Position numbers and translations under genes: made by a program
In this document: positions 31,299-35,603 of the stretch, in pieces
Position numbering within the stretch: the first letter of the stretch is position 1
Layout of the letters: every line of letters begins with the position of its first letter
The notes under the pieces: model-generated
Databases searched by the model: none
What the model was told of the DNA's origin: nothing
What the model saw: only the letters and a program-made list of their open reading frames with translations
From: Betaproteobacteria bacterium
Lineage (GTDB): Bacteria > Pseudomonadota > Gammaproteobacteria > Burkholderiales > SG8-39
Assembly (NCBI GenBank): GCA_016177575.1
Contig: JACOVA010000009.1
Location: 1 to 39,305 of the forward strand
Direction of reading: 5' to 3'
Length of the DNA stretch: 39,305 nt

Positions 31299-32261
31299 GT
31301 GCTGAAGGAAAAGCTCCTCGACCCGGCGCGCGCAGTGCTGCTCTACGGCACCACGCCGCCGCGCGCCGGCTCGAGCGCCGAGGCGGTGGCGGCGGCCGCC
31401 GAAAAGCTCGCCGCGCGCCTCGAGCGCCTGCCGCTCGACGGCGTGATCGTCTACGACATCCAGGACGAGTCGGGGCGCACCAGCCAGCCGCGCCCGTTCG
31501 CCTTCACCGAAACGCTCGATCCGCGCGTCTATGCGCGCCTGCTCGCTGCGCGCATCGGCAAGCCCGCGATCGCCTACAAATGCGTGGGTGCGCTGGACGA
31601 AGCCGGCTGGAAAGCGTGGCTGGACGAATCGAGGCGCGACTTCGGCGTCGAGTGCCTCTCGGTCGTCGGCCGGCCGACCTCGGGCGTGCGCTATCCGCTC
31701 GCGCTCTCCAGGGCGATCCGCCTCGCCGCCGCGCACCCGGCCGGCTTCGCCGTGGGCGGCGTCGCCATCACCGAGCGCCACACCGCGGAGCGAAGCGAGT
31801 CGGCGCGCCTGCTCGCCAAGGCGATCGAGGGCTGCGGCTATTTCATCTCGCAGACCGTGTACGCGCCGGAGGCCACCGTGCGCCTGCTCGCCGACTACGC
31901 GCGCGACTGCCGCGGCGCCGGCGTCGCGCCGCGCCGCATCGTGCTCACCTTCTCGCCGGTCGGGCGCGAGAAGACCATGCAGTTCCTGCGCTGGCTCGGC
32001 GTCAATGTACCGACGGACACAGAGCGCACAATCCTCGGCGCTTCCAACCCCCTCGCCAAGTCGATCGAAATCTGCCGTGATAACCTGCGGCGCATCCTCG
32101 ATCACGGCTACGCGCGCGAGATTCCGCTGGGAATCAACGTCGAGAGCGTCTCGATCCACAAGGACGAGATCGACGCGAGCGTCGAGCTCGCTCACGCCCT
32201 GCACGAGGCATTGGGCACTCAGTCAACCGGGGTGCGCCCGCCTTCCGTGTCGCGCTCGTAG
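31299..32261 (+). CDS. methylenetetrahydrofolate reductase-like flavoprotein
   Basis: A 320-residue TIM-barrel protein of the MetF superfamily. The expected role is reduction of methylene- to methyl-tetrahydrofolate, which supplies the methyl group for remethylating homocysteine from AhcY. Family-like elements are TTPPRAG near residue 20, GVIVYDIQDESGR, the barrel strand AGFAVGGVAITERHT, and FISQTVYAPEATVRLL, which resembles the MetF FITQ flavin-site segment. It is not a standard MetF: the N-terminal FEFFPP motif is replaced and the sequence is clearly divergent. GTG at 31299 starts three bases after ahcY, so it shares the SAH riboswitch. Its end overlaps the convergent DUF457-type gene by 43 bases. 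Confidence 0.7.
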   Translation: MLKEKLLDPARAVLLYGTTPPRAGSSAEAVAAAAEKLAARLERLPLDGVIVYDIQDESGRTSQPRPFAFTETLDPRVYARLLAARIGKPAIAYKCVGALDEAGWKAWLDESRRDFGVECLSVVGRPTSGVRYPLALSRAIRLAAAHPAGFAVGGVAITERHTAERSESARLLAKAIEGCGYFISQTVYAPEATVRLLADYARDCRGAGVAPRRIVLTFSPVGREKTMQFLRWLGVNVPTDTERTILGASNPLAKSIEICRDNLRRILDHGYAREIPLGINVESVSIHKDEIDASVELAHALHEALGTQSTGVRPPSVSRS

Positions 32262-33268
32262 GCGCGCCAGGGCGATCCCGGCCGGTCGCGGCAGGCGCCG
32301 AAGCGGAACGGCACCCAGTCGCGCCCCGGGTTGAGGAAGCGCAGATCGAGGAACCAGACGCAGGTCGAGCCCTCGCTCAGGCCGTCGAAGGCAGGCTGCT
32401 CGGCAAACCAGCGGAAAAACCGCAGCGCGGGGGACTCCCAGGCCGAGCGGGCCAACGCCTGCGCCGCCGGGGAATCGCCGTAGCGGCGGCGCGTGCGCCA
32501 ATCGGCGAGCGGGATCGGGCGGTAGGCGGCGTCCAGCTTGGCGACGAAGCCGTCGCCGGGCTTGTACTCGCGCACCGTGTCGCGCGCGAGGTTGACGTGC
32601 GCGAAGCGCTGCGCTTCGCTGTCGCCCACGAAGACAGTCCAGTTGTAGGGCGACACCGGGCGCGGATGCACGCTCACCACGGCGCCGGCGAGGCCGTGCA
32701 CGCGCGCATACTCGCGCCCGAACTCGAGCGCTTTTTCCTTCTGCAGGTACTGGAACCCCACGTAGCCGGCGAGCGCCGCTATCGCGACGAGCGAAGGGAT
32801 CCGCGAGCGAAAGAGGATCGCGGAGCCGGCAAGGCCCGCAAGGATGAGGCCGCTGAACCACAGGTCGATGATGAAGGTGGTGCCTAGCGCGGCGCGCCAG
32901 TCCGAGAACGGCGCGAGCAGCATAGTGCCGTAGCTCGTGATCCAGTCGCCGGCGATGTGCGTGCCGATCGCAAGCACGCACACGCCGTAGAGCGCGCGCC
33001 AGCCGCCCGGCTCGCGCAGCACCTTCGCCAGCAGCCAGGCGAGCGGCAGCGCCCAGAGCGGCATCATCACGAGCGAGTGGGTGACGCTGCGGTGGTGCAG
33101 CAGGTATTCGACCGGGCCGAAAAGGGCGACGACGAAATCGAGGTCCGGCGCGGCACAGGCGAAGAAGCCGGCGGCGACGCGCCGCGGGATCGAGCGCGGC
33201 GGCGCGTCCCTAGATGCGGTTGCGCGAGCTAACAACGCCCCCGAGAGAGCGTGGGTCAGTGTGTCCAC
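32219..33268 (-). CDS. YbcI/DUF457-type membrane-bound metal-dependent hydrolase family protein
   Basis: A 349-residue membrane protein. It begins MDTLTHALSGALLARA, the family signature. The conserved metal-type residues follow in ACAAPDLDFVV, HHRSVTHSLVMMPLWALPL and GTHIAGDWITSYGT, all in the N-terminal half with about five membrane helices (to about residue 190). A C-terminal soluble domain (about 195-349) contains SVHPRPVSPYNWTVFVGD. The family is annotated as membrane-bound metal-dependent hydrolase, but no substrate is known. Its end overlaps the MetF-like gene by 43 bases tail to tail, which is long for this window. The start is at 33268, about 30 bases after the aminotransferase gene. 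Confidence 0.85.
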   Translation of the reverse strand: MDTLTHALSGALLARATASRDAPPRSIPRRVAAGFFACAAPDLDFVVALFGPVEYLLHHRSVTHSLVMMPLWALPLAWLLAKVLREPGGWRALYGVCVLAIGTHIAGDWITSYGTMLLAPFSDWRAALGTTFIIDLWFSGLILAGLAGSAILFRSRIPSLVAIAALAGYVGFQYLQKEKALEFGREYARVHGLAGAVVSVHPRPVSPYNWTVFVGDSEAQRFAHVNLARDTVREYKPGDGFVAKLDAAYRPIPLADWRTRRRYGDSPAAQALARSAWESPALRFFRWFAEQPAFDGLSEGSTCVWFLDLRFLNPGRDWVPFRFGACRDRPGSPWRAYERDTEGGRTPVD

Positions 33269-33272
33269 AAGA

Positions 33273-33299
33273 GAAAATCGGAGTCTGACCCCGATTTTC
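33273..33299. repeat. inverted-repeat element GAAAATCGG...CCGATTTTC
   Basis: GAAAATCGG (33273-33281) and CCGATTTTC (33291-33299) are perfect inverted repeats with a nine-base loop (AGTCTGACC). Read on the minus strand the core is GGGGTCAGACTCCGATTTTC, a motif I know from dispersed intergenic repeats in many proteobacteria, often near REP-associated transposases; none is in this window. It lies between the stop of the HTH-aminotransferase gene and the start of the DUF457-type gene and could also act as a weak terminator for the former. Confidence 0.7.
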
Positions 33300-33301
33300 C
33301 G

Positions 33302-34807
33302 CTAGGCTGCGCGCTTCTTCCTCTGCGCGTCCTTGGCGTGCATCTGCGCGTAGGCGCCGTGCGCAGCGGCCTCGGCGTCGCCCACGTGCACGGGCAGCCC
33401 CATGTCGGAGAGCACCGAGGAGAGCGCGCTCAAGCACAGCATCACGTTGTCCGGGCGGCAGGAGTAGCCCATCAGGCCGAAGCGCCAGACCTTGCCCTTG
33501 AGGGGTCCCAGGCCCGCGCCTATCTCCAGCCCGAATTCGTCAAGTAAGCGCTTCCTCACTTCGGCCTCGTCGACACCTTTCGGACACAGCACCGCGTTCA
33601 TCTGCGGCAGCTGGTATTTCTCCTCGACCAGGAACTGCAGGCCGATCGCCTCGAGCCCTGCTTTGAGCGCGACGTGGTGGCGCTGGTGACGCGCCCAGCT
33701 GTTCTCCAGCCCCTCCTCGCGGATGAGCAGCAGCGCCTCGTGCAGCGCGAACAGCGAGTTGGTCGGCGCGGTGTGGTGGTAGGTGCGCGTGCCCGCATTC
33801 CAGTAGCCGAGCAGCAGGTTCATGTCCATGAACCAGCTGTGGATCTTGTCCTTCCTCTTCTTCACGTATTCGACCACGCGCTCGGAGAACGAGACCGGCG
33901 ACAGCCCCGGCGTGCAGGAAAGGCACTTCTGGCTCGCCGAGTAGATGGCGTCGATCTCCCACTCGTCGACCTTGACCGGCGAGCCGCCGAGCGAGGTGAC
34001 CGCGTCGACGATGACGAGCGCGCCGTGCTTGTGCGCGATCTGCGTCAGCAGCTTGGCGTCGGACTGGCAGCCGGTGGAGGTCTCGGCGTGCACGAACGCG
34101 AGCAGCTTCGCGTCCTTGTGCTTCCTGAACGCGTCCTCGACCTTCTGCGGATCGACCGGCCTGCCCCACTCGTCGCTCACCACCACCGGGATGCCGCCCA
34201 TGCGCTCGACGTTCTCGAGCATGCGGCCGCCGAAAACGCCGTTGACGCACACGATCACCTTGTCGCCGGGGGCGACCAGGTTGACGAAGCAGTACTCCAT
34301 GCCCACCGACCCCGGCCCCGAGAGCGGGAAGGTGAGCGGGTTGCGGGTCTGGTAGACGTAGCGCAGCAGGCTCTTCAGCTCCTCCATCATCTCGACGAAA
34401 ACCGGATCGAGGTAGCCGATCGCCGCCTGCCTCATGGTGATGAGCACGCGCGGGTGAATCTCGGTGGGCCCCGGGCCCATCAGCGTGCGCTGCGGCGGGT
34501 GGAAGGAATGGATGCGCTTCGCGGGTGCGTACTGGGTCATGGGATCGCTCTCCTGCATGCCGAACAAGGCGTGGTCGGGGCGCGATTTGACTCGCACCGG
34601 GTTCTTCGCGCTCGCTTCGTTGATGACTTCGACCGCGCCGATGCGGCCCTGGGTGACGCGCTCGACCTCGCCCGCCCAGCGGGCGGGCACGTAGCCCGTC
34701 TTGACCCAGTTGTGCACCACAGCCCGGTCGAGCTGGAAGGCGCGCGCCACCTCGGCCTGGCTGCCGAACATCTCGACCAGTCGCGCGGCGCAATTGCTCT
34801 CGATCAC
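33302..34807 (-). CDS. Cro/YdaS-like HTH domain fused in frame to a class V aminotransferase (alanine-glyoxylate/serine-pyruvate type)
   Basis: One open frame of 501 codons. Residues 1-70 form a Cro/YdaS-like helix-turn-helix (LVEMFGSQAEVARAFQLDRAVVHNWVKTGYVPARWAGEVER). From residue 90 a complete class V aminotransferase follows (about 412 residues), with MGPGPTEIHPRVL, GGSPVKVDEWEID, the PLP lysine in SASQKCLSCTPG and WNAGTRTYHHTAPTN. Relatives use glyoxylate or pyruvate with Ala or Ser. No stop separates the parts. A strong AGGAGAG lies seven bases before ATG 34540, the normal aminotransferase start, so a separate 412-residue enzyme may also be made. GTG at 34807 is the only upstream start because a TAG precedes it. 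Fusion or two overlapping products cannot be decided from sequence. Confidence 0.88.
   Translation of the reverse strand: MIESNCAARLVEMFGSQAEVARAFQLDRAVVHNWVKTGYVPARWAGEVERVTQGRIGAVEVINEASAKNPVRVKSRPDHALFGMQESDPMTQYAPAKRIHSFHPPQRTLMGPGPTEIHPRVLITMRQAAIGYLDPVFVEMMEELKSLLRYVYQTRNPLTFPLSGPGSVGMEYCFVNLVAPGDKVIVCVNGVFGGRMLENVERMGGIPVVVSDEWGRPVDPQKVEDAFRKHKDAKLLAFVHAETSTGCQSDAKLLTQIAHKHGALVIVDAVTSLGGSPVKVDEWEIDAIYSASQKCLSCTPGLSPVSFSERVVEYVKKRKDKIHSWFMDMNLLLGYWNAGTRTYHHTAPTNSLFALHEALLLIREEGLENSWARHQRHHVALKAGLEAIGLQFLVEEKYQLPQMNAVLCPKGVDEAEVRKRLLDEFGLEIGAGLGPLKGKVWRFGLMGYSCRPDNVMLCLSALSSVLSDMGLPVHVGDAEAAAHGAYAQMHAKDAQRKKRAA
34548..34554 (-). promoter_or_regulatory. internal ribosome-binding site before the aminotransferase ATG
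   Basis: AGGAGAG on the minus strand (34554-34548) stands seven bases upstream of the in-frame ATG at 34540 (MTQYAPAKR). This is one of the best Shine-Dalgarno matches in the window and the spacing is optimal. It decides that translation of the aminotransferase alone is possible inside the 501-codon frame. Confidence 0.75.
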
Positions 34808-34813
34808 GCCGAA

Positions 34814-34842
34814 AGTCTAGCGCGTCAAACTGACTTTGACAA
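34814..34842 (-). promoter_or_regulatory. promoter of the HTH-aminotransferase gene with an internal inverted repeat (putative operator)
   Basis: On the minus strand TTGTCA (34842-34837) and TAGACT (34819-34814) are separated by 17 bases, a good sigma-70 promoter. GTCAAA-CTGAC-TTTGAC (34824-34840) is a perfect six-base inverted repeat that overlaps the -35 and fills most of the spacer. Transcription would start near 34807, at the GTG itself, so the HTH part would be leaderless. The repeat is a natural candidate for binding by the encoded HTH domain, which would be autoregulation. Confidence 0.6.
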
Positions 34843-34844
34843 GC

Positions 34845-35603
34845 CTACTTTTGCACGGGCAGGCGGGACGCGCCGAGACGCCCGACGAGGGGGAGCTTGA
34901 GGGCGGGGTCGAAGGGATTGATGCCGAAGGTGAGGCCGAGGATGTTCACTTCCAGACCCTCGACGCCGCTCGCAGTGAGCGCGAACAGGCCGCCGAGCGA
35001 GAACTGCCCGCCGCTGCCGCTCGGCGCGGCGCCGAACAGCGACTCGCGGTAGTCCTTGCCGATCGCGGTCGCCGGGAAGTCCACTTCGAGCTCCGGCACC
35101 GCGCGCGCGATCCAGGCCGTGAAGGTGTTCGAGTTCGGCCCGGGCCAGACGGTGTACTCGTCCGCGTACGGGTAGGCGCGCGCCGCCGCATCTATGCGCG
35201 GAATCAGCTTCGCGGCCTCGGCGCCGCGCTGGTCGGCGAGCAGCTCGGGTGCGTTGCCGAACCAGCGCGCGTCCGGCTCGCGCCGGTGGATCGCGAGCGC
35301 GCTACCGGCCCAGCGCAGCCGCCAGCCGATCACCTCGTACACCGTGTAGGCGCGCGCGCCCGCCGGCTTCACCGCCACCCAGGTGTGCACGCCGAACAGG
35401 CCGCGCATGCCCCAGGTGCGCGCGGCGTAGACCTGCACCACCGCCTCCGGGGTCGCCGCCGGGTCGGGCGCGAGGCCCACCGGCTCGTGGCTCGCGTTGC
35501 GCCAGTCCTGCGCGATCACGCTGCGCCCGACCACCGCCACGACAAGCATCAGCCCTGCGAAGAGGAAGCAAGCCATCAGGCGGTTGCGGCGGCGCAAATT
35601 CAC
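34845..35603 (-). CDS. DUF3750 family protein
   Basis: A 252-residue protein of the DUF3750 family. An N-terminal membrane or signal segment (LMACFLFAGLMLVVAVVG, about 9-26) precedes a conserved part: VQVYAARTWGMRGLFGVHTWVAVKP, YTVYEVIGWRL and the motif DEYTVWPGPNSNTFTAWIAR, then GLTFGINPFDPALKLP. His and Cys/Asn/Ser residues in these motifs hint at a hydrolase-like fold, but no function is known. GTG at 35603 starts three bases after ttcA; ATG at 35576 is an alternative. The stop lies three bases before the next promoter's -35. Confidence 0.85.
   Translation of the reverse strand: MNLRRRNRLMACFLFAGLMLVVAVVGRSVIAQDWRNASHEPVGLAPDPAATPEAVVQVYAARTWGMRGLFGVHTWVAVKPAGARAYTVYEVIGWRLRWAGSALAIHRREPDARWFGNAPELLADQRGAEAAKLIPRIDAAARAYPYADEYTVWPGPNSNTFTAWIARAVPELEVDFPATAIGKDYRESLFGAAPSGSGGQFSLGGLFALTASGVEGLEVNILGLTFGINPFDPALKLPLVGRLGASRLPVQK

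Follow-up and report, generated by a model that had tools for sequence, protein, structure and literature searches.

What does a Cro/YdaS-type helix-turn-helix (HTH) domain do at the front of a complete metabolic enzyme? The question is raised by a gene on the (-) strand of contig JACOVA010000009.1 (assembly GCA_016177575.1, Betaproteobacteria bacterium), analysed here over positions 1 to 39,305 (the window), in which such a domain is joined in frame to a class V aminotransferase of the alanine-glyoxylate type (AGT). We consider it likely that the gene encodes a "trigger enzyme" which represses its own synthesis, apparently with no other target, and that it gives two products; we infer from comparison of related sequences that the protein binds DNA and acts as a repressor, that both forms are made and that they pair into mixed dimers.

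The gene was compared with the best 80 of 197 relatives from bacterial genomes (74–91% identity), a choice that favours fusions, and with genome surveys of the order and of the family, which unlike the 80 relatives carry no bias toward fusions. The 110 fusion frames gave 103 distinct proteins, and operator counts use 102 of these, L050 being cut by its contig and left out. Unfused controls comprise 37 loci (19 and 18 from two sets), the upstream stretch covered being 1.5 kb for 36 of them and 480 bases for L178; L186 and L187 were fetched among them, are in fact fused and were removed from the unfused group. We note that six of the loci (L040, L057, L064, L071, L073 and L084) come from metagenome bins titled Bordetella parapertussis, with the gene at 74–80% identity among uncultured Betaproteobacteria, and these names look like mislabels.

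The frame at 33302–34807 (-) runs from its GTG through 501 amino acids with no internal stop. The earlier note on this DNA, made from the letters alone, had read it as an HTH running without a stop into a class V aminotransferase, and this is confirmed by two Pfam models above their cut-offs: YdaS (PF15943) on residues 9–58 with 34.7 bits (cut-off 30), and Aminotran_5 on residues 138–432 with 76.5 bits (cut-off 21.5). Two other HTH models fall below their cut-offs, P22_Cro (25.6 bits, cut-off 30.2) and the NCBIfam model "carph-isopro" (32 bits, cut-off 38), a term that was not found in a literature search. The AlphaFold model of residues 1–77 (predicted local distance difference test score, pLDDT, 79) matches Xfaso 1 Cro (3bd1), from a prophage, with template modelling (TM) scores of 0.71/0.84 and a Foldseek E of 2.2e-3, and with VIA Z 9.5 over 62 aligned residues at a root-mean-square deviation of 1.7; Foldseek gave no match to this model at 0.001. 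The next structural matches are N15 and P22 Cro, and HigA antitoxins also appear, with Z near 7.6. Structure predictions drew on 24 of the 103 fusions. By sequence and fold, the HTH belongs to the YdaS/Cro family.

The closest solved relative of the enzyme part by sequence is the alanine-glyoxylate aminotransferase 1vjo (361 bits, over nearly the whole AGT length), and the nearest enzymes by sequence are alanine-glyoxylate and ureidoglycine-glyoxylate aminotransferases. The class I/II aminotransferase model scores 17.7 bits, below its cut-off of 19.7, and the NCBIfam equivalogs BhcA, pyridoxamine-pyruvate and PhnW match far below theirs. Padloc matches to SspA and DndA (28–31 bits) cover residues 218–295 only, and were taken as general aminotransferase-fold similarity. 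Lys294, Asp268, Gln293, Tyr343, Thr346 and Arg442, whose catalytic roles we take to be those known from human AGT, are present in 103/103 fused and 37/37 unfused proteins. Overall, Lys294, which binds pyridoxal phosphate (PLP), and 10 of the 14 other positions inspected are identical throughout both groups, the remaining four varying in a few proteins. To judge from these alignments, the catalytic site is kept in the fusions.

Does the gene make one product or two? The earlier note had pointed to an internal start with a good ribosome-binding site, and the AGGAG and ATG seen in the window prove to be conserved in relatives far beyond chance. The Met90 codon is ATG in 101 of the 103 distinct fusions and GTG in one, and the last has an ATG two codons later. 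A Shine-Dalgarno (SD) core lies at -15 to -6 of this start in 95/103 fusions, compared with 27/1558 other in-frame ATGs of the same genes, where the sequences are related and the counts are not independent events. The mean duplex energy is -6.3 at the internal start, -3.7 after codon shuffling and -2.5 at other ATGs. At the first start, an SD core is present in 10/102 fusions.

A self-regulating fusion might nevertheless have only one genuine product, if the internal ATG and SD were unused leftovers of a stand-alone ancestor. The internal Met does sit where unfused orthologues begin: the nearest in-frame ATG of the 37 aligns at fusion residues 82–99 (27/37 at 86–91), and we therefore take Met90 to mark the old start; moreover, several residues just past it are conserved as protein. 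However, the linker upstream of the ATG differs in amino acids among the fusions, yet its codons retain the SD. All 73 glycines at places -4/-5 are encoded by GGG (57) or GGA (16), and none by GGC or GGT, whereas GGC and GGT account for 80% of glycine codons in the frames as a whole (GGC 67%, GGG 14%, GGT 13%, GGA 6%); a single further glycine, which at -3 falls outside the SD, has the codon GGT. The single valine found at the internal start is encoded by GTG, which is a start codon, and the SD core is more frequent there than at the starts of unfused orthologues (23/37, by a slightly laxer rule). We regard a leftover start as unlikely, and infer that the gene yields two products, HTH-AGT of 501 residues and AGT alone of 412 residues.

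The second question is what the HTH would bind. A promoter-like TTGTCA-N17-TAGACT lies at 34842–34814 (-), the only one found in 34300–35000, where 0.1 are expected, and an inverted repeat, GTCAAA-gtcag-TTTGAC, lies at 34840–34824. The perfect repeat described in the earlier note is therefore present, except that it is not confined to the space between -35 and -10: it extends over the end of the -35 hexamer and occupies the spacer. When the window is searched with a degenerate pattern allowing up to three mismatches, the only matches are the two orientations of this operator site (0.02 expected). The upstream palindrome shared by the fusions is TTGTCAAAnTnAnTTTGaCA; in the form TGTCAAAnTnAnTTTGACA it lies over the promoter in 100/102 distinct fusions, which match 13–15 of its 15 fixed bases, with the other two at background level. 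None of 510 base-shuffled upstream regions reaches a score of 13, and the palindrome was not found upstream of the 37 unfused AGT genes, which score 8–10 of 15.

The second half-site of the palindrome sits in the spacer, where polymerase requires no fixed sequence. At the fourth position of the -35, all 102 fusions have T, at sites chosen by a pattern that includes this T; the sigma-70 consensus has A here, and the T therefore fits a demand of the operator. A TAnnnT motif at 17-nt spacing is found in 88/102 fusions. In the window, the GTG is placed where transcription should begin and starts 7 nt after the -10, so that the message is predicted to have no leader or almost none; the predicted leader is 0–5 nt in 51/102 fusions.

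The palindrome could also be bound by some other regulator of the cell, with the HTH serving other targets or protein contacts. A comparison of HTH residues with operator bases, in which kinship was ignored, gave no clear covariation. Such a regulator would however be expected to have further sites. At up to one mismatch, 25 of the 31 fusion genomes contain one site, at the fusion promoter, and no second, which also speaks against a wider regulon; the unfused genomes hold one stray site in 29. In the window's own genome (64% complete) the operator occurs once, and the one further match, at two mismatches, is at the level of a reversed-pattern control. Furthermore, site and HTH co-occur, and both are missing in unfused relatives. 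Binding by another regulator is accordingly improbable in our view, and one near-consensus site per genome is what would be left by a dedicated autoregulator.

A third possibility is that the HTH is a fossil: a captured prophage cro with its promoter, which now merely drives the enzyme, its DNA binding being unused. The phage Cro type of the HTH would suit such a history, as would the predicted leaderless start, a feature described for repressor genes of phage immunity regions (PMC8630535). Disuse is however hard to reconcile with the ratio of nonsynonymous to synonymous substitution rates (dN/dS, pooled over 1831 pairs), which is as low in the HTH (0.18) as in the enzyme (0.17), with 0.27 in residues 59–77 and 0.32 in the linker. 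Many alignment columns of the HTH are invariant, and the palindrome has been kept as described above. Because of these low ratios, together with the kept catalytic positions, neither half looks to be decaying, and we give a neutral fusion very little credence.

Some positions in and after the HTH deserve mention in their own right. Of 102 fusions, 101 retain Cys6 (34790–34792) at the start of helix 1; this residue could have a sensor or structural role. P70, K74, S75 and R76 (34580–34600), which follow the HTH, are present in 103/103, and this basic tail could contact DNA.

That the fusion is an artefact of assembly or frame, joining two neighbouring genes, has next to no chance of being correct: the window does come from an incomplete assembly, but the HTH is in the same frame in 79/80 relatives from many assemblies (the 80th being the contig-cut L050), including L027, titled SCGC AG-212-J23 and by its name presumably a single-cell genome, and in 75 of the 78 gene-bearing genomes of the window's family. 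The earlier note had asked about a stop near residues 70–89 in relatives and about a separate HTH gene. The frame is open in all 79 relatives with a contig that extends as far as the N-terminus, and no HTH reading frame lies upstream of any of the 37 unfused orthologues within 1.5 kb (36 loci) or 480 bases (L178).

In the window's family the gene is found in 78/98 genomes. Of the three in which the HTH was not seen in frame, G573 has its match starting from base 2 of the contig, the coordinates of G583 are those of the cut contig L050, and the third is G566; there is no clearly unfused copy among the 78. One genus of the family lacks the gene in 7/7 genomes, and the match in G605 has a TAA within it. 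In the order survey, a match at E ≤1e-60 was obtained in 109 of 250 genomes; full fusions account for 31 of the 109, spread over six families, and the remaining close orthologues, fragments apart, align only from residue 65–100 onward. On this comparative evidence, the joining of a Cro/YdaS HTH to a complete AGT is a real and old fusion, which occurs in many uncultured Betaproteobacteria. As a separate observation, L168 (genome G164) is a more distant unfused AGT (69–70%), in a family of which two other matching sampled members carry the fusion; its genome is 68% complete, and a fusion there may therefore have been missed.

In a tree of enzyme parts (56 of the 103 fused and all 37 unfused rows), the fusions form one group with support 99, inside which two unfused genomes, L120 and L121, are nested. 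A fused clade without these two is not rejected by the approximately unbiased test (p 0.416), which allows both to lie outside it, and we do not claim secondary loss of the HTH in them. With either topology, one gain of the fusion is enough. A scan of 274 genomes from the class for a donor of the HTH gave three matches at E ≤0.01, namely the own genome and two at 30% identity. One of the latter, L190, has stops inside; L189 belongs to a haem-oxygenase-like protein, of which it is the C-terminal part; no HTH model matches it, and it was taken as a chance match.

We can now propose how the gene might work. Full-length HTH-AGT would dimerise via its aminotransferase part, and the dimer would set two Cro-type HTHs on the promoter palindrome, blocking RNA polymerase; this operator would be its sole near-consensus target. 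One message would be read from two starts: the SD-poor, often leaderless first start would give HTH-AGT, and the conserved internal SD and ATG would give the enzyme alone. Enzyme-only subunits would pair with HTH-AGT into mixed dimers that have one HTH and are poor binders, and the ratio of the two forms would therefore set how tightly the gene is controlled. The earlier note had offered self-regulation and two products as alternatives. Each is backed by the comparisons, the first by the operator and the constraint on the HTH, and the second by the internal SD and start, and they are not alternatives, since the same gene carries both signatures.

A further step can be put forward tentatively, and we think it rather less probable than otherwise. 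The gene might be a built-in homeostat, in which the leaderless product is the repressor-enzyme, SD-led enzyme-only subunits spoil its dimers, and occupancy of the shared active site by ligand or PLP tunes operator binding. If so, one gene and one operator would measure and set their own enzyme activity.

Several observations weigh against the autorepressor with two products, besides the covariation mentioned above. Two close relatives (L078 and L080) have an operator score of 10/15, no better than the best unfused loci, and are not distinguishable from background since unfused loci score 8–10. Six of the 31 fusion genomes have no site at the fusion at up to one mismatch; five of these have none anywhere and G180 has one elsewhere. 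There may be weaker targets in the genomes, at two or more mismatches. Cro-type domains can activate as well as repress. The SD core is missing at the internal start in 8/103 fusions, and locus by locus only 49% beat the codon shuffle at p 0.05, which makes the SD signal strong in the set and moderate per gene. The full-length AlphaFold model (pLDDT 65.5) is too weak for arguments about the dimer.

If the proposal holds, a PLP class V aminotransferase with a phage Cro domain joins the short list of self-repressing enzymes, with a regulator-free second product encoded in the same frame as the repressor-enzyme. The circuit would be a minimal one, of one gene, one operator and two starts, and seems to have arisen once. 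Because it is minimal and apparently of single origin, and because close unfused relatives provide natural controls, the gain of autoregulation by an enzyme becomes directly testable. The elements involved are listed below.

Table 1. Coordinates in the window of the fusion gene, its domains and its putative control elements.
Feature	Position	Strand	Remarks
HTH-AGT fusion gene	33302..34807	(-)	501 codons, GTG start, single open frame
Operator palindrome TGTCAAAGTCAGTTTGACG (putative)	34823..34841	(-)	Conserved over the promoter of fusions
-35 hexamer TTGTCA	34837..34842	(-)	Overlapped by the operator
-10 hexamer TAGACT	34814..34819	(-)	17 nt from the -35; start codon begins 7 nt downstream
Cro/YdaS-type HTH domain	34631..34783	(-)	PF15943, 38.8 bits (genome scan)
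Linker	34541..34633	(-)	Invariant P70 and K74-S75-R76 lie in a conserved first segment; the stretch after it varies and bears the internal ribosome-binding site
Internal Shine-Dalgarno AGGAG	34550..34554	(-)	SD core conserved in fusions
Internal start codon ATG (Met90)	34538..34540	(-)	Predicted start of the 412-residue AGT form; conserved in fusions
Class V aminotransferase part, alanine-glyoxylate type	33302..34540	(-)	Pfam, sequence match to 1vjo, kept catalytic positions

The seven neighbouring frames that were scanned comprise an S-adenosylhomocysteine (AdoHcy) hydrolase, one frame with no match, a YdjM protein, a DUF3750 protein, a PP-loop protein, a short-chain dehydrogenase/reductase (SDR) and a methyltransferase, with no regulator among them. 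Among 102 relatives, whose flanks differ in length so that these counts are lower bounds, a ttcA-like gene lies upstream in at least 56 and an SDR gene in at least 45; the AdoHcy hydrolase lies downstream on the other strand in at least 24. None of these neighbours explains the regulation through operon logic.

Two bases separate the end of the DUF3750 gene (34845–35603) from the -35 of the fusion, and promoter and operator therefore fill almost the whole gap. Just past the fusion stop codon, at 33276–33296, there is a palindrome AATCGGGGTCAGACTCCGATT, of which the own genome contains 8 occurrences when up to two mismatches are allowed (control 0); it is a dispersed palindromic repeat that may act as a terminator here. 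Further downstream, the frames 31299–32261 and 32219–33268 are convergent and overlap by 43 bases; for the 320-residue one Pfam gave nothing at E 0.001, and the other is a YdjM-type membrane protein.

Among listings of open-access papers we found no description of an HTH fused to a class V or glyoxylate aminotransferase; those that came up dealt with other subjects, among them a methionyl-tRNA synthetase fusion, PKS/NRPS enzymes and the YdaS or RacR proteins of prophages. The gene is best placed by comparison with systems that share one of its halves. For the enzyme these are AGXT, 1vjo and pucG, which are alike to the AGT part over nearly its whole length; the matched chains, going by their names, are plain aminotransferases. 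The HTH shares family and fold with the Cro proteins of Xfaso 1, N15 and P22 and with YdaS of CP-933P, the last of which is an analogue of Cro: it binds to operators, and the two promoters of its region, including its own, are repressed by it (PMC8630535). Those phage repressors are small stand-alone proteins, whereas the HTH of the fusion is part of a chromosomal metabolic enzyme. A YdaS toxin-antitoxin or immunity pair does not fit, the seven neighbouring frames containing no partner repressor and no YdaT.

The regulators MocR, GabR and PdxR are alike in having an HTH and a PLP aminotransferase-like domain in one chain, the C-terminal part of MocR being a class I aminotransferase according to PMC5320631. 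In the fusion, the HTH is of Cro type, the enzyme is of class V and retains its catalytic residues, and a near-consensus site lies at the gene's own promoter alone. The 8 Pfam families listed for the fusion protein up to E 10 include no GntR model, and the class V model is over its cut-off with class I/II under; membership of the MocR group was rejected on these grounds. The earlier note had set the gene apart from MocR/GntR proteins by both HTH and aminotransferase fold. The difference in HTH family stands. Class V and class I aminotransferases both have PLP fold type I, and the fold therefore does not separate them; the class and the kept catalytic site do.

The closest parallel is with trigger enzymes such as PutA and BirA, which likewise combine an enzyme and a DNA-binding domain in one polypeptide. 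The DNA-binding domain is a ribbon-helix-helix in PutA and a winged helix in BirA. Trigger enzymes are defined in PMC8249747 as enzymes with an added DNA-binding domain that regulate genes; five are listed there for E. coli, including PutA, whose binding is confined to the putA-putP spacer, the region of its own promoter. With its kept catalytic site, an HTH in the same chain and a conserved candidate operator, HTH-AGT is best read as a candidate enzyme of this kind. It differs from PutA and BirA in pairing a PLP aminotransferase with a Cro-type HTH, and in that an enzyme-only second product is apparently built into the fusion gene itself.
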